This document shows positions 52,049 through 64,000 of a stretch of 64,000 bases of DNA, in pieces (position 1 is the first letter of the stretch; each line of letters opens with the position of its first letter). The stretch is from Jiella marina (GTDB lineage Bacteria; Pseudomonadota; Alphaproteobacteria; Rhizobiales; Rhizobiaceae). The notes below the pieces were generated by a model. That model searched no databases. It saw only the letters and a program-made list of their open reading frames with translations, and was not told where the DNA came from. The stretch is taken from positions 186,001 through 250,000 of the forward strand of contig NZ_JAKQZG010000001.1 in the NCBI RefSeq assembly GCF_024359545.1, in the 5' to 3' direction. Made by a program: the position numbers and the translations under genes.

Positions 52049-52570
52049 CTAGCGAACTCCGGTCGGCGGCGCATTCCGCCACCAGTTCCCGTCCGATGTG
52101 ACAGGCTCAATGCCGTCGCCGGGCAGAAGCGGCAACCACTCCGCCACGCGCCGGTCGGAAACGGCGAGATCGGGTGCGATGTCGGCGAGTGGCACAAGGA
52201 CGAAGGCCCGCTCGGTAATGCGGGGATGCGGGAGTGTCAGCGCCTCGTCGTGATAGTCGACGCCGTCATGGTCGAGAACGTCCAGGTCGAGGGTCCGCGG
52301 CCCCCATCGCTCGCGGCGCTCGCGCTTGAAGGCGCGTTCCGTCTCAAGACAGAGCGCCAGAAGCGCACGGGGGTCGAGGCTGGTTTCGACCGTGGCGCAG
52401 GCATTGAAGAAATCGGGCTGATCGGTCTTTCCCCAAGGCGGCGTGCGGTATAGCCGCGAGACCGCGACGACGTGACAATCCTCCCGGTCATCGATCAACC
52501 TGAGCGCTGCCGCCATTGCCTCCTTCGGGTCGCCGACATTTCCGCCGAGGCCCAGCCGCGCCAACGCCAT
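52049..52570 (-). CDS. folK: 2-Amino-4-hydroxy-6-hydroxymethyldihydropteridine pyrophosphokinase
   Basis: 173-residue HPPK of folate synthesis. It shows LGLGGNVGDPKEAM, YRTPPWGKTDQPDFFNA and WGPRTLDLDVL with the metal aspartates, plus PHPRITERAFVLVPL. The ATG at 52570 shares one base with the folP stop (TGATG); a GTG one codon before is possible. Confidence 0.95.
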   Translation of the reverse strand: MALARLGLGGNVGDPKEAMAAALRLIDDREDCHVVAVSRLYRTPPWGKTDQPDFFNACATVETSLDPRALLALCLETERAFKRERRERWGPRTLDLDVLDHDGVDYHDEALTLPHPRITERAFVLVPLADIAPDLAVSDRRVAEWLPLLPGDGIEPVTSDGNWWRNAPPTGVR

Positions 52571-53430
52571 CACCAGCGCTCGCCATTGAGCGCGCGGCGC
52601 ATGGCGTCGGCGATCGCCAGCGCGTCGCGATTGGCCGGGACATTGTGGACGCGAATGATGTCGGCACCCCGCTCGCGCAGGAGCACGCTGGTCGCGGCGG
52701 AGGCGATGTCCGGCTCGGGATCCTCCCGGCCGATGGCACCGCGCACGAAACGCTTGCGCGACGTGCCGACAAGGAGCGGATAGTCGAATTCCAAGAGCTC
52801 CGGGAGACGCGCGAGCAGGATCAGGTTTTCCGGCCCGTCCTTCTCGAAGCCGAAACCGGGATCGAGGACGATGGCTTCGTCCTTGACTCCTGCCTCATGG
52901 GCGATCTCGAGAGAGCGCCGCAGGAACAGGAACTGGTCCTCGATCACATCGGCCAGCTTCTCGCGCTCGCGGCCCGTGTGCATCAGGCAGAGCCCTGCAT
53001 CCGTGTCGGCGGCAACCTTCGCGATCGCGGTGTCCTTCTGCGCGCCCCAAACGTCGTTGACGATATGGGCTCCGGCTTCGATCGCCATCCGCGCCGTTTC
53101 CGATCGATAGGTGTCGACGGAGATGATGCAGTCGGAGCGCCGGACGAGTTCCTCGATCACCGGCATGATCCGCCGCTGCTCCTCGGCCGCATCGACCGGG
53201 GTCGCGCCCGGACGGGTCGACTCGCCGCCGATATCGACGATCGCGGCCCCCTGCTCCACCATGCGCAGTGACTCGCTCACGGCCGCTTCGACAGACGCGT
53301 AGCGGCCACCGTCGGAAAAACTGTCCGGCGTTGCATTCAGAACGCCCATGATCGTCGCTGTCTCGCCAAGCGTCAGCGAGCGTCCATGGGCCAGTTTCCA
53401 GGTTCCGCCGCGCGGTGCGATAACGTCCAT
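52570..53430 (-). CDS. folP: Dihydropteroate synthase
   Basis: 286-residue TIM-barrel enzyme joining p-aminobenzoate to the pterin pyrophosphate; target of sulfonamides. Signatures are IMGVLNATPDSFSDGG, DIGGESTRPGA, LDPGFGFEKDG and VGTSRKRFV. Followed at once by folK; the folB gene that usually sits between them in related genomes is absent. Confidence 0.96.
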   Translation of the reverse strand: MDVIAPRGGTWKLAHGRSLTLGETATIMGVLNATPDSFSDGGRYASVEAAVSESLRMVEQGAAIVDIGGESTRPGATPVDAAEEQRRIMPVIEELVRRSDCIISVDTYRSETARMAIEAGAHIVNDVWGAQKDTAIAKVAADTDAGLCLMHTGREREKLADVIEDQFLFLRRSLEIAHEAGVKDEAIVLDPGFGFEKDGPENLILLARLPELLEFDYPLLVGTSRKRFVRGAIGREDPEPDIASAATSVLLRERGADIIRVHNVPANRDALAIADAMRRALNGERW

Positions 53431-53660
53431 CTCTCTCGCTGCCTCTTCCTGCTGCGAAGCGGTTGCCTTCTCACGTCTGCCGGTGCCCCGACCAAGACCG
53501 ATGAATCTGATTGGGCGACTGGCGCGATCGTCGAAGTTCGCAGCCAGCCCTCGGTAGCCCTCCGGAGATTATTGCGCAATCGTGTCCTAACAGCCGCTTG
53601 TTTCTGGATCGCGATACGATAGCGTGGCCGAAAGATGCGGATGCGGGGAAAGTGCCAGTC

Positions 53661-54278
53661 ATGAAGCTGACAACGGGATTGTGCGTATTGGGCGTGGCAC
53701 TTTCACTGGCGGGTGCGGCCGCAGTCGGTGCCGGAGCCGCCTCGATCACGGAGAAGACCACCTATTTCGCGGTCAAGGGATCGACCCTCGCCGAACTCGA
53801 CCAGGATCTGAACCGGCGCGGCCCGTTTCTCTCGGAGACTGGTGTGCGACATCCCGGCGCGACGGAGGTCACCTTCGATGGCAAGGTCAGCTACAAGCGG
53901 ACCTCCGAGGGATGCGAGGTCGATCAGACCAATCTCAGCCTCAATCTCGAGATCACCCTGCCCAAGTGGACCCCGCCCAAACGGGTTTCTCCCCAGACCC
54001 GCCTGATCTGGCAGACGCTCGAGGCCGATATCGTCCGGCATGAGAACCGGCATGCGGCGATCGCCAAGAACTGGCTGAAACGAACCGAAAGCGCGCTGCG
54101 CAACCTGCGTCCGGAGCGCACATGTCGCGAGATGGAAGCGATGGTCAATACGGTGACCGCCCGCTATCTCGCCGGACACGAGCGGGCTCAGGTCGAGTTC
54201 GACACGATCGAGGCGCGTGAGGTGAATTTCCGCCTTCGCCGGGCGCTCTATCGCGCGGTTCAGGAACAGGGTCGATAA
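53661..54278 (+). CDS. DUF922 secreted putative zinc peptidase
   Basis: 205-residue protein with a signal peptide (LCVLGVALSLAGAAAVGAGA). The DUF922 core follows: VKGSTLAELDQDLNRRGP, CEVDQTNLSLNLEITLPKW and a zinc-type motif HENRH in EADIVRHENRHAAIAKNW. Activity is predicted for the family but not shown. The ATG at 53661 was chosen at the signal peptide. Confidence 0.85.
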   Translation: MKLTTGLCVLGVALSLAGAAAVGAGAASITEKTTYFAVKGSTLAELDQDLNRRGPFLSETGVRHPGATEVTFDGKVSYKRTSEGCEVDQTNLSLNLEITLPKWTPPKRVSPQTRLIWQTLEADIVRHENRHAAIAKNWLKRTESALRNLRPERTCREMEAMVNTVTARYLAGHERAQVEFDTIEAREVNFRLRRALYRAVQEQGR

Positions 54279-54405: not shown

Positions 54406-54726
54406 TCAGGCCTGTTCTTCCGGAACGTACAGCACAAGCCCGTCCAGTTCCGGCCTCACCTTGATCTGGCATGACAGACGGGAGTTGGGTTGCGGCTCGT
54501 AGGCAAAGTCGAGCATGTCTTCTTCCATCGGCTCCGGTTCGCCGACCGTCTCGCGCCAGGCCTCGTCCACATAGACATGGCAGGTCGCGCAGGCACAGGC
54601 TCCGCCGCATTCGGCCTCGATTCCCGGAACGTCGTTCTTGACGGCGTTCTCCATGGCAGTCGTGCCGTTCGGCGCGTCGATGTCGTAGCGCGCTCCGTCC
54701 GTGGTCTGGAAAATAATCTTGGTCAT
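54406..54726 (-). CDS. Adrenodoxin-type [2Fe-2S] ferredoxin
   Basis: 106-residue ferredoxin. Cluster cysteines are in [16 protein letters not shown] (C-x5-C-x2-C) with the fourth in SRLSCQIKV. The adrenodoxin-type spacing serves electron transfer to Fe-S biogenesis or P450 systems. The ATG at 54726 ([17 protein letters not shown]) is the family start. It converges with DUF922. Confidence 0.93.
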
Positions 54727-54924
54727 GCGGCAACGGCCCTGCACTGATTGCGGGAAGGCGGACGGCGCTCGCAGCACGATGCTCGTGCCCTTCGGCGCTC
54801 GTGTTTGGTCGATCTACGCGGGGGCGGATTTCGACGCTTCCCTGCCTGTTAGAAAGCGGATCACGTCAAAGTCAATGCGAACCGGTCCACAAAGCCGGGC
54901 CAGTACTCGTGCGCCGACGGTCTG

Positions 54925-55311
54925 TCAGGCAACCGCCAGTTCTCGCGCGAAACGCGCCGTATGCTTCATTTCTTCCGCCAGATCGGCCACGGCTTGCGGA
55001 TCAGCGGTTGCCGCCTCAAGTCGCTCGGCCGCATGGGCAACGCGGAAGGCGCCGACATTTCGCGCAGCTCCCTTCAGCGCATGGGCGAGCTGCCGCCTCT
55101 CCTCGGGCATTGCCGTGGAAAGGAGCGGGAGCACCCGGTCGATCTGCCGAACGAGAAGTCCAAGCACTTCCGATTCGAGGATGCGGTCGCCGGTGGTCTG
55201 GCGGGCCAGATGGACGAGGTCGATCGGCGAGTTTCGGGACGGGCATTCGATTGCAGGCCCTGTTTCGGCTTGCGCGTCGACACTTTGGAGATCCCCGCAA
55301 AGATCGGCCAT
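54925..55311 (-). CDS. Orphan HPt (histidine phosphotransfer) domain protein
   Basis: 128-residue single-domain HPt protein. The phospho-accepting His is in LAHALKGAARNVGAFRVA; the four-helix pattern surrounds it (RILESEVLGLLVRQIDRVL, HAAERLEAA). It would relay phosphate between a hybrid kinase and a response regulator, neither of which lies in the window. GGAG precedes the ATG at 55311; a GTG at 55320 is possible. It is divergent from the GPR-like gene. Confidence 0.85.
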   Translation of the reverse strand: MADLCGDLQSVDAQAETGPAIECPSRNSPIDLVHLARQTTGDRILESEVLGLLVRQIDRVLPLLSTAMPEERRQLAHALKGAARNVGAFRVAHAAERLEAATADPQAVADLAEEMKHTARFARELAVA

Positions 55312-55744
55312 GGCGTGCACTCCGGCTCAGTCCGCGGACAGCTCGTGATGCTCGTCCGAGGGACCCTTTGATCAGCGATCGTCTCGTCTTTGGGTTGGCA
55401 AAGGATTAACCCGTCGTCGGGATTTCGACGCTAATTCTCTCATGCGCTGCCACCGGCCGATCGCGCAAAGGCCTCTGCGGCAGGCCATGGCGCGAAAACG
55501 CCCGCAATTTTCTCGCCATCGTTAACCTTATGTTTAAACTTGTACGCATCCGGCGGCTTTACGGTTTCTTTCGCGGGGATGCGCCACTAACATTCACGAT
55601 GGAGACCGTGGGCCTTCGTCCGGATTTGGCTGACCTTGTGTCGGCCGGCTTCGGCCGAAGCCCGCTTCGTCGCACCAGCGCGGAAATCCGCAGGCGGCGA
55701 AGGCTGGAAAAGCCGGCAGTAACGAGTATCGAGGCGCGACGGCG
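55312..55744. other. 433-base gap upstream of the GPR-like gene
   Basis: No supported gene; the frame starting at 55530 overlaps the GPR gene in another frame and is a shadow. The AT-rich stretch 55516-55545 with CGTTAACCTTA (55522-55532) and GTTTAAAC (55534-55541) is the likely control region, and a TTAAC half-site lies at 55406-55410. Confidence 0.5.
55522..55532 (+). promoter_or_regulatory. CtrA-like half-site CGTTAACCTTA before the GPR-like gene
   Basis: Identical to the 11-mer at 2353-2363 upstream of the M23 peptidase. A TTTAA follows at 55535, giving TTAA-N8-TTAA, one base longer than the CtrA consensus. About 210 bases before the start codon. Confidence 0.35.
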
Positions 55745-58700
55745 ATGTCCAAGACGAAACCCTCCGATCAGCTTCCCGACGACGCAGTCAACGAGCTGGA
55801 AGAGGCGCTGGCCGATCTTCAGGTGGATGGCGCCTCTGACGGCGATGCGAGCGAGGCCACGGCGGAAGCGACCGGCCACCTCGAATCGAAAGAGTCCACC
55901 GAGAGCGCCGACGTCGTGCTCTCCATGGAGGATTTCGAAAGGCAGCTTCGCGAGACCGCCGGGCAGCTTCGTGACGAAGAAAGCGCGGCAGAAGTCTCTG
56001 CCGGCGAGATGCGACAGGATTTTTCCGACCGTCAGGCGGCTGAGGCCTCGAAGGAGTCCGAGCAGTACGGCATGGCGGAGGAATACACCTTGGGCCTGGC
56101 GGCCGCCGGCGGCGGCGGCGCGGCCTATTACGCAAGTGCGTCCAGTCCGACCGGCCCTGCCCCGGAAAACGCTTCCGGCGACAAGGGGGCTGCCGCCCCC
56201 GACAACATGGATCAGGAACAGCGCCGCGGTCCCACGTCGAGTTCGGAGCAGCAGCGCGCCTACAACCAGGCTCCGGCCAATGACGAGGAACGGCGGACCG
56301 CCGTCTGGGCAGAAGCCCTGCTCAACCGTCGCGCATCGCGCACGCCGCTCTGGATCGCGCTTGTCGTCTCAATCCTCTGGATCGCCGGTGTCGGCTATGC
56401 GGCAACCACGATGTACGGGACCAATCTCGAAACGCTGACGAACGGTCTCAACGATCCGCTGGGTCAGGGCGAACTGCTTCTCTTGGGTCTCGCCGCGCTC
56501 CTGCCGCCGCTGCTGTTTTTCGCCTTCGGTCTGATGATCCGGCGTTCGGCCGATCTGAGGCTGATGAGTCGCTCGCTGGCGGATGTCGCCCTTCGTCTGG
56601 CGGAGCCCGAAAGCATCGCGACCGAGCGCGTCATGAGCGTGGGTCAGGCTGTCCGCCGCGAAATCGCCGGTCTCGGCGAAGGCGTCGAGCGCGCCCTGTC
56701 GCGCACGGCCGAACTCGAAAACGTCGTGCGCAACGAGGTGAGCCAGCTCGAACGCGCTTATGCCGACAATGAGGTCAAGATCCGCACGCTGGTCCAGGAT
56801 CTCGGCGCCGAGCGCGAGGCGATGCTCTCCCATGCCGAGAGGCTGCGCTCCGCAGTCGTGGGGTCGCACCAGCGTCTGGTGGAAGACGTCGACATGACCT
56901 CGGACGACATTCTGCGCCGGATCGAGGAAGCCTCGCAGCGCTTCACCGCCCTTTTGGAGGAGCGCGGCGCGGCACTTGCCAGCGACTACCAGAACCGCAA
57001 CGAAGAGCTTTCGGCCCTGATCGAGGATCGCAGCAAGACGATGCGCGATCAGCTTTCGGAAGAAGGCAATGCCCTGCTCGACCGGCTCTCGGAAATGGCC
57101 GAGAACGCCGGTCAGCGTCTGATCACGATCGGCGATCAGGTCTCGCGTGATCTGGACGAGCGGTCCAACGGCATCAGCGAAGAACTCGGTACCCGCAGCA
57201 CGGCGATCGTGGGGCTTCTCGAAGAGCGTTCGCGGGACATCACGCAGCGAATCACCGGCGACAGCGAAGGCCTGATCGAGCGTATCACCACGAGCGCGGA
57301 CGATGCCGCCCGCCGGCTGAACGAGGCCGAAACGGCACTCGGCGCCACGGCGGAAGAGCGCAATCGCGTCCTCAGCGAGACCTTCGAGGCCCGCAGCCGC
57401 GAACTGATCGCCATGTTCGAGGAGAAGACGACCTCCTTCGGCAGCCAGGTCACGGATCTCAACGATCGGCTGGTGGCCGATCTCTCCTTCACCGGCGAGA
57501 ACGCCTGCAATCAGATCAGCACGCTGGGTGGCGAAGTCACCAGCCAGCTCGAAGAGCGGACCGCCCTCCTCGCAAGCGAGTTCGAGACGCGAAGCCGCAA
57601 CCTTCTCGCGGCCTTTGACGAAAAGAGCGCGGAAGTCACCAGCCAGGCCGGCCAGGCCAATGATCGCCTGCTCGCCGGCATCACTTCCGGCAGCGAGGCC
57701 GCCGTTCAGCGTCTGACCCAGGCCGCCGAGACCGTGACCCAGTCGTTCGAGGCCACGAGCGCGAACCTGTCCAGCGATTTCGAAACCCGCAGCCAGAGCC
57801 TTATCGCCGACATCGAGGCCAGCAGCCAGGCCCTGTCGAGCCGCGCGAACGAGGCCAACGAACGGCTCGTGAGCGGGTTCTCGTCCAATGGCGAAGCAAT
57901 CGTCGCGCGGATCTCGAGCGCTGGCGAGGATGCCGCCCGCACCCTGGAAAACCGGACGTCCGGCCTGCTCGAAGACTTCGAGACCCGCAGCCAGGGGCTT
58001 CTGACCTCCTTCGACGAGCGCGCCGCGGCCTTTGGTTCGGCCGTCCGCGAGATGAGCGAACACCTCGTCACAGACCTGTCCCTGAACACGGGAACGGCGG
58101 TCGCCCAGATCGTCGAGGCGGGCGAGACGATTGGACGGACTCTCGAAGAGCAGACGCTCACCCTGTCGAACAGCTTCGACACGCGCAGCCGCGGCCTGCT
58201 GTCGGACTTCGAGCAGAAGAGCACAGCCCTGACGAGCCAAGCAGAGGAGGCGAGCGACCGATTGATTGCGGGGCTCTCGCTCAGCGCCCAGTCGGCCGCG
58301 GACCAGATCGTCGGGGCGAGCCAGACCGTCGGCCAGACGCTGGAAAATCAGCTGGCAGCCCTTTCGAACGACTTCGATGGACGCAGCCAGGCCCTGCTTT
58401 CAAGCTTCGGCGAACGGACGGCTGCCTTCGGAGCCGCAGCACGCGAGATGAGCGAACAGCTCGTCGCCGACCTGTCGCTCAATAGCGGTACGGCGGTGAA
58501 CCAGATCGTGGAGGCCGGCCATACGATCGGCCGCACACTCGAAGAGCACACGCTCTCGCTCTCGAACGATTTCGACAATCGCAGCCGCGCCCTGTTGACG
58601 ACTTTCCAGGAGACGAGTTCGACGCTGGCGGACCAGGCGAACGAGATGAACGAACGCCTCGTAGCGGGTCTGTCCCTCAGCGCGGAATCCGCGGTCGGGC

Positions 58701-61700
58701 AGATCGTCGGCGCCGGCGATCGTGTCGGCCAGACGCTCGAAGAGCAGGCGTCACGGATCTCCCTCGACTTCGAGACCCAGACAGACGGTCTCGTCAACCG
58801 GATCGGCGAGCGCAGCAGTGCCCTCTCCGCGACGCTTGCCGAGCGTTCCGAAGCGTTGGTCGGACAGATCACGGTGCTGTCCGACGATACCACCCGCCGC
58901 TTCGACGAGACCAACGAGCGCCTTCTGTCGCGCTCGGGCGAGATCGCGGAGCATCTTGCAAATCTGGGCACCGAGGTCACCGGACGACTGATCGCTTCGG
59001 CGGACGCCGCGACGGGCCTCTTGCAGGCCAGAACCCAGACGCTGACCGAATACAGCGAGACCTTCCTTGCCGGACTGAGCGAAGCGCTCGACGACCGCAC
59101 GATGACCATGACGCTCCAGGGCGAGACATTCCTCGCCGGGCTCGAAGCCTTGTTCAACGAACGGCTGGAAGCGATCGAGCATCAGGGTACGGCCTTCCAG
59201 GAGGGCGTGGCCCAGAACATCGATGCGCGCCGCGAAAGGCTGGAAGCAAGCGCCGATCAGTTCCTCAAGACGGCCGAGACCGAGCTTGGCGAGCGCACGA
59301 CACGCATCGAGACCCTGCTGGCCGATTCCAATACCCGCACACTTGGCGGATTGGACGAGCGGATCGAGACGATCGAAAAGGCGCTCGGCGACCGGGGCCC
59401 GGCCCTGATCGAGGCGATTGAGAACCGCGCGAACGCGATCGAGGTCTCGACCGACCGGATTTCGACCGTCCTCGACGAACGTTCGCGCGAATTCGCCAAG
59501 GGTCTGGCCGAACGCACCCGGGAAATCGTCACGGCCTTCGAGAGCGGGAAGTCGGAAATCTCCGAACGCGCCGCCGATGCCGTCACCATGGCCAATGCGA
59601 CGCTGGAAGCACGCACCAACGAGCTTCGTGAACTCCTGTCACAGCGTTCCGATCAGCTCGACAACATGCTTGCCGAACGGTCCTCGAACCTGACCGACAC
59701 GCTGGACAATCGAATCCTCTCCTTTGACCTGTCCGCCGACAGTCGGATCGACTCGATCAATGAGCGGGCCGGCGAAGTCGGTGACAAGCTCGAAGGTGCC
59801 GCATCGCGGATCGAGACAATCCTGACGGAACGCCGCGACGAAATCGAGGTGGTTCTCGGCCGGATCGCGGACGGCTTCGACACGAGCTTCAGCGGACGCG
59901 TCCAGACCCTGGAGCAGAACTTCGCCGATTACGGCGCCCGGTTCGCCGAAGCGCTGGCCGAGGCCCAGAACCTCCTGACCAACGACATGGGCGAGCGTAC
60001 CGATGCGGTGGCCCGGCGAGTCGAGGAGATTCTAGCCGAGATCAATCAGGCGCTTGGGACGGTCGAAGGCGCGTTCGCCCGCGGCGTTGAAGAGCGCACG
60101 GCTGTGCTGGCCGCGCTTCTCGACGAGCGACGCGGAGAGATCGAGTCGCTCCTCGCCACATCCGAGCACAACATCACCGATGGCGTGGACCGCCGGATCG
60201 CGGCTCTCGCCAGCATCCTCTCCGAGGGCGAAGGCAGGATCACGAGCTCGCTCGAAAGCGAATCGGCACGTTTCATCAGCGGCCTGGACGAAAAAGCAAA
60301 CATTCTTCTCGAAGGTTTCGACCGCCGTTCGGAGTCCCTGAATGCCGGACTGGCCGATCGGATCAGCGCCAGCGAGCGCGTCCTGGGCGATGCACAGGAG
60401 ACGATGCTGTCCGGGCTCGATCGCCAGCATGTCGAACTGCGGGATCTGCTCGACAGCCGGACGAACGAATTGCAGCGCCTCTCGGAGGATATGCAGACGC
60501 GGATCGTCGGTGTGCTCGACGAGCGGATCGGCGGCCTGTCCGGCGGGTTCGATCAGATTGCCGAACAGGTGGCCGGAGACATCGGACAGCGCGTCGAAGC
60601 CCTGCGCAGCGCTCTGGAAGAGACCCGAGGCATGCTCGTTTCAACCATCGAAGGCGAGACGGGCCGCTTCCGCTCCGAGATCGACGAGCGCACCCGTGGC
60701 TTCGAGGATCAGCTTTCCGTCAGTGCTGGCGCGCAACTCGTGGCGATCGAGAGCGCGCTGGGCATGGTCGTCGAAGGTCTGGACGAGCGCGTGTCGCGCC
60801 TGAAAGACGTGGCGGATGGAGCCCGCTCGGAGATCGAGACGGAAATCGACCGCCAGATGGAAGCCTTCCGCGAAACGCTCGAAGCCGGACGCAACGGGGT
60901 TTCTGGCGAGTTGCAGGAAAGCGGCGAGACCATCAACGCCGTTCTCGATACGCGTCTTGCCGAGCTTCGCCAGACGGCGGAATCGGTCGAGACCGGGATT
61001 CGCGAGGCGTTGGAAAGCCGTTTCGGCAACCTCGAAGGCCTCTTCGAAGGTGGTCGCAATCAGTTGTCCAGCGTCCTCGACCAGCGCATCGAGATGATCT
61101 CTGGCGACATTGCCACGCGGGTCCAGGAGGTGGGCGAGAACCTAGACGCCCGCACCGCCGCCCTTCGCGCGATCATCGAGGAAGCGCAAAGCACTCTGGT
61201 GGGAGGCCTTGGCGAGCGCCTGTCGGCTATCCAGCAGATCGTCGACGGCTCCGAAGGCACGCTGCTGGCTTCGCTCGACGCGCGCCGCGACGAGTTCGGC
61301 CGTCAGATCGACAGCGGTCGCCAGGCGATCGCGACGACGCTCGAGGAGCGGGTCTCCGCCCTGTCGGATGCTCTCTTCGAAGCGGACCTGAAACTCGCGA
61401 CCGCCTTCGACGAGCGTCGCGACAGCCTGGCCTCGCTGATCGACGGGGCCGTCAGCTCCGCGGCGGCGACGCTGGAGGACCGCGTCGACGACGTGCGCCG
61501 CACGATCGAGCAATCGGTCGGCGACGTGTCGCAGACGCTCGAATCCCGGCGCGAGGACTTCGTCTCGGCGCTCGAAGGCGGATCGTCGAGCCTGGTCGGC
61601 GCCATCGATCAGCGGACCGAAGCGATCGCCAGCGCGCTGGATCGCGGTCTCGGCAATGTCGAACGGACGTTGAACGCGCGCACCGCGACGGTCGCCGAGA

Positions 61701-64000
61701 CGCTCCGCAAGGCGATCTCCGAGGCGACGGCCGCCATGACCGAGGAGGCCGGCCGCGCCCGTCAGGGCCTCGAGGCCGAAACCGAAAAGGTCTCGGCAAG
61801 CGTCAACGACATCTCGCGGCTCTTCGATGCGGCGAGCGAGGACGCCCGCCAGCGCATCGCCTCGGAAGCCGAGCGCCTCGCCGATCGGCTCGGCACTCTG
61901 GCGAACGATCTGGCAGACCGCACGGAGAGTGCCGGTACGCGGCTCGTCGGCGAAGGCAACCGGATTGCGGAAACGATCGGCGGCTCGACGGAAGTCATCC
62001 GCTCGCTTTCCGAAGAATCCCGCTCGCGCTTTGCCAATGAAGCCGAGACCCTGGCGACCGACATCGCCCGGCTTTCCGGCGAGATCCGCCGCGAAGCGGA
62101 CGATGTGCGCGAACAGCTCGCCCAGCAGCGGATGGCTCTGGTCGACACGCTCTCGGGCATTTCGGGAGCCGTGGCCGGCGAATTCGACCGCAACACGGAG
62201 AGCTTTGCCGAACGGATCGGCGCGGCCGGCGACCAGCTGCGCAAGATCGGCGACGAAAACCGCCGCAGTTTCCAGCGCGACGCCGACAGTCTCACCGGCG
62301 AGTTCGAAGGCGCGATCGCCCGAATGGCGGAACTTGCCCGGACGGCCGAGGCCGCGCTTCAGGCCAATGGCGACGATTTCACCCAACGGGTCGCACAAGC
62401 TTCCGACAGCGTACGGAACGCGACCACCGACATCGCCGCTGCTCTCGACGACAAGGCGGGACAGTTCTCGTCGCAGATCGAATCGGTCACACAGAGGCTG
62501 AGCGACCTGTTGGCCGCGAACCCGGTAACGGGCGAAATCGACAGCGCAACGGCGCGGCTGCGTGAGGAACTGGTAGCGTCTTCCGAGGCGATCCGGGGCG
62601 ATGTGACCAATGTCGTTTCACAGCTCCGCGGCGAAGTGGAAACCGTGTCGGGGACGCTCCTGCGGGATGCGGACGCCGTGCGCGACCAGATCGCCTCGCG
62701 CAGCGAAGATCTGGCCAGGGAAATCGCGGCAATGTCCGAGATCATCCGTCTGGAGACGGAGCGGGCGCGCGGCACACTGCTCGAGAGTGCCGGCAGTATC
62801 GGCGAAGAGCTCTCGGCGCGCATGAGCGACACCGAACGCGTCCTCGCGACGCGGACCCGGATGATGAACGACGAGCTGGAGGAGAAGACCCGCAACCTCG
62901 CCGGCATGCTGGCTGCCCGCAACGCGGAAATCGGCCGTATCCTCGACGACGAGGCCCGTCCGATGCTGAGCCAGATCGGCGAAAGCGGCACGGAGCTCGC
63001 CCGTCTCCTGCAGATGAGCACCCGCGAGGCCGCGGAAAAACTGCGGGCAGAGAACGCGTCTCTCGCCGCCGCACTGAGCCGACGTGCCCAGGAGACCATC
63101 GACAACCTGTCGCAATCCTCCGACGCCATCCTCGGGGCGCTCGACGAAAAGGCCGCTTCGACGGTCGGCATGATGAGCGAGATGCGCGAGCAGTTGCAGC
63201 GTGATGTCGGTTCGTTGATCGGCCGCCTCGCCCAGACCTCGAGCTCGCTTCGCGGGCTGGTCGAGGAAACGGCAGGCAATCTCGGCGCAATCGACGGCAT
63301 CCTCAAGGAGACCGGAGAGCGTTTCGCACACGATGCCGAGGAAGCCTCGAACTCGATCTCGCTCAGCGCCCGCATGCTCGACAGCAATGTCGAACGTCTC
63401 GACAAGCTGTCGCTGTCGGCCTTCTCCAAGATCGCCAACATGGCCGATCGCTTCCAGGAGCACGGCGCCGTTCTCGGCGAGACCGTCGAACTCCTGGAAA
63501 ACCGGGAAGCCGGATTGCGGTCGGTTCTCGAAGGCGGCCATGCCGGGCTCGACGAACTCTCGTCGAACCTCGTCGCCCGCTCCGAGGAGATCGGCGGCCT
63601 GATGCGGTCCTTCGAGGAGGTCTTCAACGGCCTGTTCGATCGCACCGAGCAGCGCTCGCGCATGATCTCCGAGCGCTTGGCTACTGAGGTCGGCGGTTCT
63701 CTGGGCGACGTCGAACAGCGGATGCTGGCGGCCGAGGAACGCTCGCGCGAGAACGCCGCGTCCATGCGCGAGGCGATCCAGAGCGTGCTCGACGAGGCCA
63801 CCACGCGCTTCGATGGAGCGACGGACGAAATCCGTCGCACGGCCGAGGCGATCCGTTCGGAAATCGAATCGGCACGCACCGAGATCAAGCGTGGCGTCTT
63901 CGAGCTTCCCGAAGAGACGCGGACGAGCACGGAATCCATGCGTCGGGCGGTTGCGGACCAGATCCGGGCCCTGCGCGATCTGTCGGACATCGTTTCGCAA
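55745..64000 (+). CDS. Growth Pole Ring (GPR/RgsE)-like giant coiled-coil protein, 3' end outside window
   Basis: One open frame of 2752 codons with no stop before the window end. Residues 1-198 are acidic and cytoplasmic (MSKTKPSDQLPDDAVNEL at the start); two membrane segments follow at about 200-221 (TPLWIALVVSILWIAGVGYA) and 244-265 (LLLLGLAALLPPLLFFAFGL). The rest is a very long helical tail rich in E, R, S, A and L with 11-residue periodicity, like apolipoproteins. This is the architecture of the Agrobacterium GPR protein (about 2115 residues) and Sinorhizobium RgsE, which form a ring at the growing pole. It is already longer than GPR. The ATG at 55745 is in frame after a stop at 55631. 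Confidence 0.85.
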   Translation, partial: MSKTKPSDQLPDDAVNELEEALADLQVDGASDGDASEATAEATGHLESKESTESADVVLSMEDFERQLRETAGQLRDEESAAEVSAGEMRQDFSDRQAAEASKESEQYGMAEEYTLGLAAAGGGGAAYYASASSPTGPAPENASGDKGAAAPDNMDQEQRRGPTSSSEQQRAYNQAPANDEERRTAVWAEALLNRRASRTPLWIALVVSILWIAGVGYAATTMYGTNLETLTNGLNDPLGQGELLLLGLAALLPPLLFFAFGLMIRRSADLRLMSRSLADVALRLAEPESIATERVMSVGQAVRREIAGLGEGVERALSRTAELENVVRNEVSQLERAYADNEVKIRTLVQDLGAEREAMLSHAERLRSAVVGSHQRLVEDVDMTSDDILRRIEEASQRFTALLEERGAALASDYQNRNEELSALIEDRSKTMRDQLSEEGNALLDRLSEMAENAGQRLITIGDQVSRDLDERSNGISEELGTRSTAIVGLLEERSRDITQRITGDSEGLIERITTSADDAARRLNEAETALGATAEERNRVLSETFEARSRELIAMFEEKTTSFGSQVTDLNDRLVADLSFTGENACNQISTLGGEVTSQLEERTALLASEFETRSRNLLAAFDEKSAEVTSQAGQANDRLLAGITSGSEAAVQRLTQAAETVTQSFEATSANLSSDFETRSQSLIADIEASSQALSSRANEANERLVSGFSSNGEAIVARISSAGEDAARTLENRTSGLLEDFETRSQGLLTSFDERAAAFGSAVREMSEHLVTDLSLNTGTAVAQIVEAGETIGRTLEEQTLTLSNSFDTRSRGLLSDFEQKSTALTSQAEEASDRLIAGLSLSAQSAADQIVGASQTVGQTLENQLAALSNDFDGRSQALLSSFGERTAAFGAAAREMSEQLVADLSLNSGTAVNQIVEAGHTIGRTLEEHTLSLSNDFDNRSRALLTTFQETSSTLADQANEMNERLVAGLSLSAESAVGQIVGAGDRVGQTLEEQASRISLDFETQTDGLVNRIGERSSALSATLAERSEALVGQITVLSDDTTRRFDETNERLLSRSGEIAEHLANLGTEVTGRLIASADAATGLLQARTQTLTEYSETFLAGLSEALDDRTMTMTLQGETFLAGLEALFNERLEAIEHQGTAFQEGVAQNIDARRERLEASADQFLKTAETELGERTTRIETLLADSNTRTLGGLDERIETIEKALGDRGPALIEAIENRANAIEVSTDRISTVLDERSREFAKGLAERTREIVTAFESGKSEISERAADAVTMANATLEARTNELRELLSQRSDQLDNMLAERSSNLTDTLDNRILSFDLSADSRIDSINERAGEVGDKLEGAASRIETILTERRDEIEVVLGRIADGFDTSFSGRVQTLEQNFADYGARFAEALAEAQNLLTNDMGERTDAVARRVEEILAEINQALGTVEGAFARGVEERTAVLAALLDERRGEIESLLATSEHNITDGVDRRIAALASILSEGEGRITSSLESESARFISGLDEKANILLEGFDRRSESLNAGLADRISASERVLGDAQETMLSGLDRQHVELRDLLDSRTNELQRLSEDMQTRIVGVLDERIGGLSGGFDQIAEQVAGDIGQRVEALRSALEETRGMLVSTIEGETGRFRSEIDERTRGFEDQLSVSAGAQLVAIESALGMVVEGLDERVSRLKDVADGARSEIETEIDRQMEAFRETLEAGRNGVSGELQESGETINAVLDTRLAELRQTAESVETGIREALESRFGNLEGLFEGGRNQLSSVLDQRIEMISGDIATRVQEVGENLDARTAALRAIIEEAQSTLVGGLGERLSAIQQIVDGSEGTLLASLDARRDEFGRQIDSGRQAIATTLEERVSALSDALFEADLKLATAFDERRDSLASLIDGAVSSAAATLEDRVDDVRRTIEQSVGDVSQTLESRREDFVSALEGGSSSLVGAIDQRTEAIASALDRGLGNVERTLNARTATVAETLRKAISEATAAMTEEAGRARQGLEAETEKVSASVNDISRLFDAASEDARQRIASEAERLADRLGTLANDLADRTESAGTRLVGEGNRIAETIGGSTEVIRSLSEESRSRFANEAETLATDIARLSGEIRREADDVREQLAQQRMALVDTLSGISGAVAGEFDRNTESFAERIGAAGDQLRKIGDENRRSFQRDADSLTGEFEGAIARMAELARTAEAALQANGDDFTQRVAQASDSVRNATTDIAAALDDKAGQFSSQIESVTQRLSDLLAANPVTGEIDSATARLREELVASSEAIRGDVTNVVSQLRGEVETVSGTLLRDADAVRDQIASRSEDLAREIAAMSEIIRLETERARGTLLESAGSIGEELSARMSDTERVLATRTRMMNDELEEKTRNLAGMLAARNAEIGRILDDEARPMLSQIGESGTELARLLQMSTREAAEKLRAENASLAAALSRRAQETIDNLSQSSDAILGALDEKAASTVGMMSEMREQLQRDVGSLIGRLAQTSSSLRGLVEETAGNLGAIDGILKETGERFAHDAEEASNSISLSARMLDSNVERLDKLSLSAFSKIANMADRFQEHGAVLGETVELLENREAGLRSVLEGGHAGLDELSSNLVARSEEIGGLMRSFEEVFNGLFDRTEQRSRMISERLATEVGGSLGDVEQRMLAAEERSRENAASMREAIQSVLDEATTRFDGATDEIRRTAEAIRSEIESARTEIKRGVFELPEETRTSTESMRRAVADQIRALRDLSDIVSQ
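57287..58870 (+). repeat. Eight tandem 198-base repeats inside the GPR-like gene
   Basis: Units start at 57287, 57485, 57683, 57881, 58079, 58277, 58475 and 58673 with no insertion or deletion; each encodes 66 residues (residues 515-1042), six hendecads. A recurring anchor is DFETRS-like (ETFEARS, SEFETRS, SDFETRS, NSFDTRS, NDFDNRS). Units at 58079 and 58475 are most alike, and units at 58277 and 58673 share SLSA with QIVGA, suggesting a 396-base higher-order duplication. A ninth unit before 57287 aligns weakly. Confidence 0.85.

Follow-up and report, generated by a model that had tools for sequence, protein, structure and literature searches.

Proteins of the GPR/RgsE kind localise to the growing pole, form a ring of about 200 nm and are needed for rod shape. 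In polar growers without MreB, GPR is a candidate scaffold for the placement of wall synthesis (PMC8546619). The published lengths are 2115 aa for GPR of Agrobacterium tumefaciens (Atu1348; PMC8262873) and 2089 aa for RgsE of Sinorhizobium meliloti (PMC7327166), and matches to the profile PF01442 are reported for the Agrobacterium protein, whose tail has been proposed to organise lipids (PMC8262873). GPR has been called similar (PMC8546619) and analogous (PMC13170164) to Caulobacter TipN (882 aa). Crescentin, which was used as a Caulobacter marker, was over the cut-off in none of 385 genomes.

The window studied here is a stretch of 64,000 nucleotides (G000:C1:186001-250000), at whose end an open reading frame of the forward strand continues without a stop. 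The original prediction had described it as a giant growth-pole protein, longer than the 2115 residues of GPR and with two membrane segments and a huge helical tail, and had raised the possibility that the added length alters ring size or partners. In the continuation sequence the stop codon lies at C1:250990, 990 bases past the window, and the full frame has 3081 residues, with the first ATG/GTG/TTG that follows the preceding in-frame stop taken as its start, which confirms that the giant open frame is real. Both membrane segments were recovered by hydropathy, and the tail lies behind them (Table 1). The tail holds three prolines in all and is followed by a Pro-rich stretch (residues 2722-2961; 29 prolines within residues 2701-3000), and the last ~118 residues form a conserved C-terminal domain.

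Table 1. Features of the gpr locus, in window positions; residue numbers refer to the 3081-residue frame.
Feature	Position	Strand	Basis
Dihydropteroate synthase (FolP)	52570..53430	-	PF00809 4.5e-73; neighbour common to C58 locus
DUF922 protein, upstream of gpr	53511..54278	+	PF06037 2.9e-40; neighbour common to C58 locus
GPR/RgsE orthologue, residues 1-2752 of 3081	55745..64000	+	Open frame and continuation
Acidic N-terminal region, residues 1-197	55745..56335	+	Net charge -24 over residues 1-150
Transmembrane segment 1, residues 198-223	56336..56413	+	Hydropathy; helix in AlphaFold2 model
Transmembrane segment 2, residues 241-266	56465..56542	+	Hydropathy; continues as long helix in AlphaFold2 model
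Conserved post-membrane block, residues 257-359	56513..56821	+	Present in 125/125 sequences searched; alignment
Hendecad (11/3) helical tail, residues 290-2721	56612..63907	+	Period 3.66; PF01442 in 17 stretches
66-residue (6 x 11) ladder, seven clear units, residues 539-1000	57359..58744	+	Repeat comparison
Conserved box at helix end, residues 2693-2756 (start only; cut by the window end)	63821..64000	+	In 124/125 sequences

The homology of the N block and the C-terminal domain, the single copy and the shared neighbours support the identification of the window gene as a GPR/RgsE orthologue of a Jiella-type bacterium, in line with the original prediction. When searched against Agrobacterium GPR, the N block matched a frame in genome G330 with 41% identity over 242 aa (E 2e-57); from its second Met this frame is exactly 2115 aa long, as published for GPR, and we take the genome to be that of Agrobacterium C58. 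The C-terminal domain is 69% identical to that of the G330 protein (row L057), and three neighbours of the C58 locus also lie in the window, namely FolP (62%), the DUF922 protein (40%) and one further frame. The two proteins are alike in their two membrane segments, their PF01442-type helical tail, their Pro-rich linker and their C-terminal domain; they differ in that the window protein is 966 residues longer, its tail measures 2436 against 1665 residues, and its strongest internal repeat is of 66 residues, against 22 in Agrobacterium GPR. PF01442 matches the window protein in 17 stretches (E 7.7e-72, 241 bits, Pfam cut-off 90). RgsE of S. meliloti, of the same family, has a tail of 1624 residues, and in S. 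meliloti 4H41 (locus L140) the N and C blocks stand in one frame of 2094 aa from the first Met; in the S. meliloti laboratory strain Rm2011 the deletion of rgsE is viable (PMC7327166). For the 215-aa frame directly upstream of gpr (54701-55348, plus strand), matches were obtained at 24 of 140 loci, most of them from Jiella and Aurantimonas.

The C-terminal domain gave one match per genome in 61 genomes, the window's own included, and was present in all 39 genomes of genus g18. Five g18 genomes belong to the eight, out of 297, in which a telomere resolvase was matched, which pointed to Agrobacterium as the probable identity of this genus. The N and C blocks share one frame in 59 of the 60 relatives examined, which comprise 55 of the 60 C-terminal-domain relatives (G017, G045, G050, G052 and G059 were left out of this check) and five members of genus g18. 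The loci of the window's genus are labelled Jiella pacifica, pelagia, endophytica and flava, with one Aurantimonas strain, and the PopZ family (PF10691) is present in the window genome. In the records L045/L101 (Jiella pelagia) and L118 (Aurantimonas manganoxydans) the two blocks lie in different frames or pieces, through either sequencing error or a real break. In four genomes of family f31 (G649, G578, G683 and G672) the C-terminal domain is matched a second time, more weakly, in frames of 443-456 aa or, in G672, partially in one of 966 aa; this may be a tail-less paralogue. The domain was not matched in the three genomes examined of family f36 (G369, G410, G444), where GPR may have been lost.

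Measured from anchor to anchor, the tail of the window protein is the longest (2436 residues) among 215 rows, which represent 214 distinct sequences. Its great length is a clade trait, common to the genus and not peculiar to this genome: ten near relatives (nine of the genus and G035) have nine frames of 2650-3050 aa and one broken frame. The intact frames of 59 relatives span 915 to 3050 aa from stop to stop, and tail lengths vary seven-fold (348-2436) in otherwise conserved proteins. Outside the order, the domain occurs in frames of 2418 and 2491 aa in G820 (L294) and G815, both genomes of 2.0 Mb; giant tails may have more than one origin.

The hydrophobic residues of the tail recur with a period of 3.66, at a power of 193, whereas 200 shuffled sequences reach at most 11.5; this periodicity is far beyond chance. 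A heptad coiled coil was rejected, as the power at period 3.5 is 0.3 against 189 at 3.66. Across 60 sequences the period lies between 3.57 and 3.67. The stripe of the window tail is not one perfect rod, because two blocks of about 600 residues each hold one phase with drift between them, the phase drifts roughly 280 degrees relative to an exact 11/3, and towards the end the signal becomes weak. The autocorrelation of the tail has its peaks at 66, 132, 22 and 11 residues. In the ladder of seven 66-residue units each is 36-53% identical to the next, two unit pairs are 61 and 71% alike at a distance of 132 residues, and two weaker units precede it (residues 407-538). In the AlphaFold2 model of the N-terminal part (pLDDT 71-97, with the dip to 71 near Pro288; pTM 0.41), TM2 is continued by a single helix some 180 residues long. 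A model of the C-terminal domain, made for the near relative Jiella pacifica (L099), is all-helical with seven helices (pLDDT 85, pTM 0.81); the fold had no PDB match at E <= 0.001, and a search by sequence gave 12 matches at E <= 10, the best at 0.12.

The analysis of tail lengths suggests that the tail is a rod whose length changes mostly by steps that keep the helical register. Lengths were measured between anchors at both ends with the tail itself unaligned, and a pair was counted as in phase if its length difference was 0, 4 or 7 modulo 11, for which 27% is expected; close pairs are independent pairs no more than 0.4 apart on a tree built from the conserved domains. Nine genomes of the window's genus could be measured: eight are 5 modulo 11, with six distinct lengths between 2018 and 2436, and the ninth has 2014. 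In the first set 18 of 29 independent pairs were in phase (18/27 when re-paired on a larger tree), and the best period of the length differences was 3.67 in a scan from 2.5 to 12. Replication with genomes added later gave 10 of 12 pairs in phase and a best period of 3.66; when the lengths were jittered by at most 15, none of 20,000 such controls reached the score. Combined, 31 of 43 independent close pairs are in phase; the rule is broken by the other 12 and by 34/91 of all pairs. Among the 23 steps that are not multiples of 11, 11 are 4 or 7 modulo 11 (20% expected, p 0.0025), so plain slippage by 33 bases, one 11-residue unit, would be insufficient. Over all 124 sequences the tail length is weakly concentrated at 11/3 (R 0.24), and it is in close pairs that the phase rule appears. 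Near the window's genus, G035, L104 and L108 are likewise 5 modulo 11, but further loci that bear the names Aurantimonas, Aureimonas or Mangrovicella have other values (such as 2 in G031, 0 in L107 and 7 in L105). The GPR/RgsE protein kind is known and the register-keeping evolution of its tail appears to be new: in the portions consulted of the literature on the growth pole ring/GPR, RgsE, TipN and hendecads, neither a hendecad register nor such length steps were found described.

The two flanks of the hydrophobic stripe differ in charge. Arg and Lys are more frequent on the left flank than on the right in all 124 tails, and Asp and Glu on the right in 117 of them; in the window tail the flank sectors differ little in acid content (DE 0.12 and 0.15). 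Bundles formed by hendecads are straight or right-handed, and lipid-binding apolipoproteins carry basic residues to either side of their hydrophobic face and are rich in prolines. Apolipoprotein A-IV resembles the window tail in its amphipathic repeats and in matching the same profile, PF01442, and differs from it in flank charges, Lys content and Pro content. In the apolipoprotein A-IV segment that served as the yardstick, the sole apolipoprotein compared, the basic flanks are equal (0.20/0.20), with 7% Lys and 3.5% Pro, whereas the window tail has basic flanks of 0.20/0.08, 0.9% Lys, 0.1% Pro and a net charge of -7.9 per 100 residues; by this comparison it lacks the two basic flanks and frequent prolines of a lipid binder. 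The single Arg-rich flank, unlike the flanks of apolipoprotein A-IV, favours helix-helix packing, and hence a helix bundle rather than a lipid binder.

We consider it probable, with moderate confidence, that the gene encodes the GPR/RgsE of a Jiella-type bacterium, a new-pole scaffold in which a hendecad-bundle tail spaces the membrane anchor from the C-terminal domain and the register of the tail is under selection. By analogy with Agrobacterium and Sinorhizobium, the protein would gather at the new pole and scaffold envelope synthesis there. Its tail would form a helical bundle, right-handed or almost straight, in which the hydrophobic stripe holds the helices together, with the Arg-rich flank packing against acidic residues, and this bundle would set the distance between anchor and C-terminal domain. 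Tail length would evolve through gain and loss of hendecad blocks, with selection removing most changes that turn the stripe out of register. Against this reading stand the imperfect stripe and its drift, the dip in the N model, the pairs that break the phase rule, the slight acid asymmetry of the window tail and the width of the GPR foci, which at about 50 nm is below the length of an extended rod (PMC8262873). Deletions of different regions of the GPR tail also have different effects (PMC8262873), which implies that the tail is more than a spacer.

Tail length could instead be neutral, with the repeats expanding and shrinking by slippage and recombination while nothing but the membrane block and the C-terminal domain matters, and to this we give appreciable but lesser credence. 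The seven-fold range of lengths and the 66- and 132-residue duplications fit such neutrality, as does the observation that Brucella RgsE is also found at the new pole (PMC9938171), with tails of 1104-1173 residues at the loci from named Brucella species. Neutral expansion accounts for multiples of 11 but leaves the excess of steps of 4 and 7 modulo 11 unexplained, and deleting one long region of the Agrobacterium GPR tail abolishes paired foci in a complementation assay (PMC8262873). Since selection on phase is compatible with neutral length, this alternative is excluded only in part. That the tail is an apolipoprotein-like lipid binder, with amphipathic helices that rest on the membrane and arrange the lipids at the pole, seems to us unlikely. 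It draws on the PF01442 match, on the only two solved-structure matches at E <= 10, both to apolipoprotein A-IV (best E 6e-5), and on the proposal and deletion data for Agrobacterium GPR (PMC8262873); against it stand the charge, Lys and Pro differences from the one apolipoprotein compared, and likeness to PF01442 may be a general property of 11-residue repeats. It is very improbable that the protein is unrelated to GPR and only resembles it, as a heptad coiled coil or the tail of a ZorA-type motor. A weak match to the ZorA (Zorya) model was found (E 4.3e-7), but at 29.2 bits it is far below the NCBIfam cut-off of 250 and the relation was rejected; there is no heptad peak, and orthology with GPR is backed by the homologous N and C blocks and by the common neighbours.

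Taking a match at E <= 1e-60 as full MreB, we found the protein in 44 of 397 genomes of the order; absence means no match at this threshold, or weak matches only (in a set of 62 genomes, all with some). It is absent from the window genome, whose best match (2.8e-16) lies in a 668-aa frame that we read as another actin-fold protein. The C-terminal domain was found in 43 of the 44 MreB-containing genomes (39/40 plus 4/4). In 37 of the MreB-containing genomes the post-membrane block, the box and the domain share one frame, with tails of 451-924 residues. Of the 39 matches in the set of 40 such genomes, 37 were examined (G540 and G392, with short frames, were left out), and 33 of these gave a tail length. 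In the MreB-less set 63 of 74 matches were examined and 58 gave a tail length. The 109 tested MreB-less tails span 348-2436 residues, with 93 above 924, and every tail observed to exceed 924 came from a genome counted as MreB-less; G331, G342, G348 and G353, of untested MreB status, are outside these tails and outside the contrasts that follow. Despite this strong raw difference, a causal role of MreB loss in tail lengthening is unsupported, as in 7 independent tree contrasts the MreB-less member was longer in 4, equal in 2 and shorter in 1. The domain was not matched in 6 of 80 MreB-less and 1 of 40 MreB-containing genomes, which counts against a universal GPR. G386 (L261), near MreB-containing genomes of f2 and with the same 491-residue tail, has no MreB at E <= 1e-60, through recent loss or an assembly gap.

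In the class, 107 of 289 genomes carry the domain, for the most part in frames that are shorter. Each of the 20 class loci inspected shows a hydrophobic segment close to its N end and ends in the domain, the post-membrane block is in place in 7, and the 17 measurable periods (3.55-3.63) are nearer to mixed repeats than the 3.66 of the long tails. Because short GPRs occur in MreB-containing genomes and the domain across the class, short GPR seems older than the loss of MreB. It has been reported that MreB occurs in only four Rhizobiales species, without Rgs homologues, and mutual exclusion was suggested; the RgsE hits in that work were filtered at ±50% of length (PMC7327166), by which frames under about 1045 aa would be removed.

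A bolder reading, which we regard as improbable, is that the tail is a ruler in which the number of hendecads determines the radius of the ring or of the growth zone, with long tails only in MreB-less lineages, where they partly replace MreB, and derived from a short GPR that coexisted with it. If it were true, at 0.15 nm per residue the tail would measure ~250 nm in C58 and 365 nm in the window protein, and the ring would be about 1.5 times wider. The extended 1,700-residue helical domain of GPR is given as 600 nm (PMC8262873); as an alpha helix at the same rise it would be about 255 nm by our arithmetic.

GPR bears on the question of how wall synthesis is placed in polar growers without MreB. 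With short GPRs occurring beside MreB, the mutual exclusion of MreB and Rgs proteins that has been suggested in print needs qualification. A register-keeping tail offers a concrete and testable model and questions the apolipoprotein reading, and the natural series of tail lengths provides ready-made variants.
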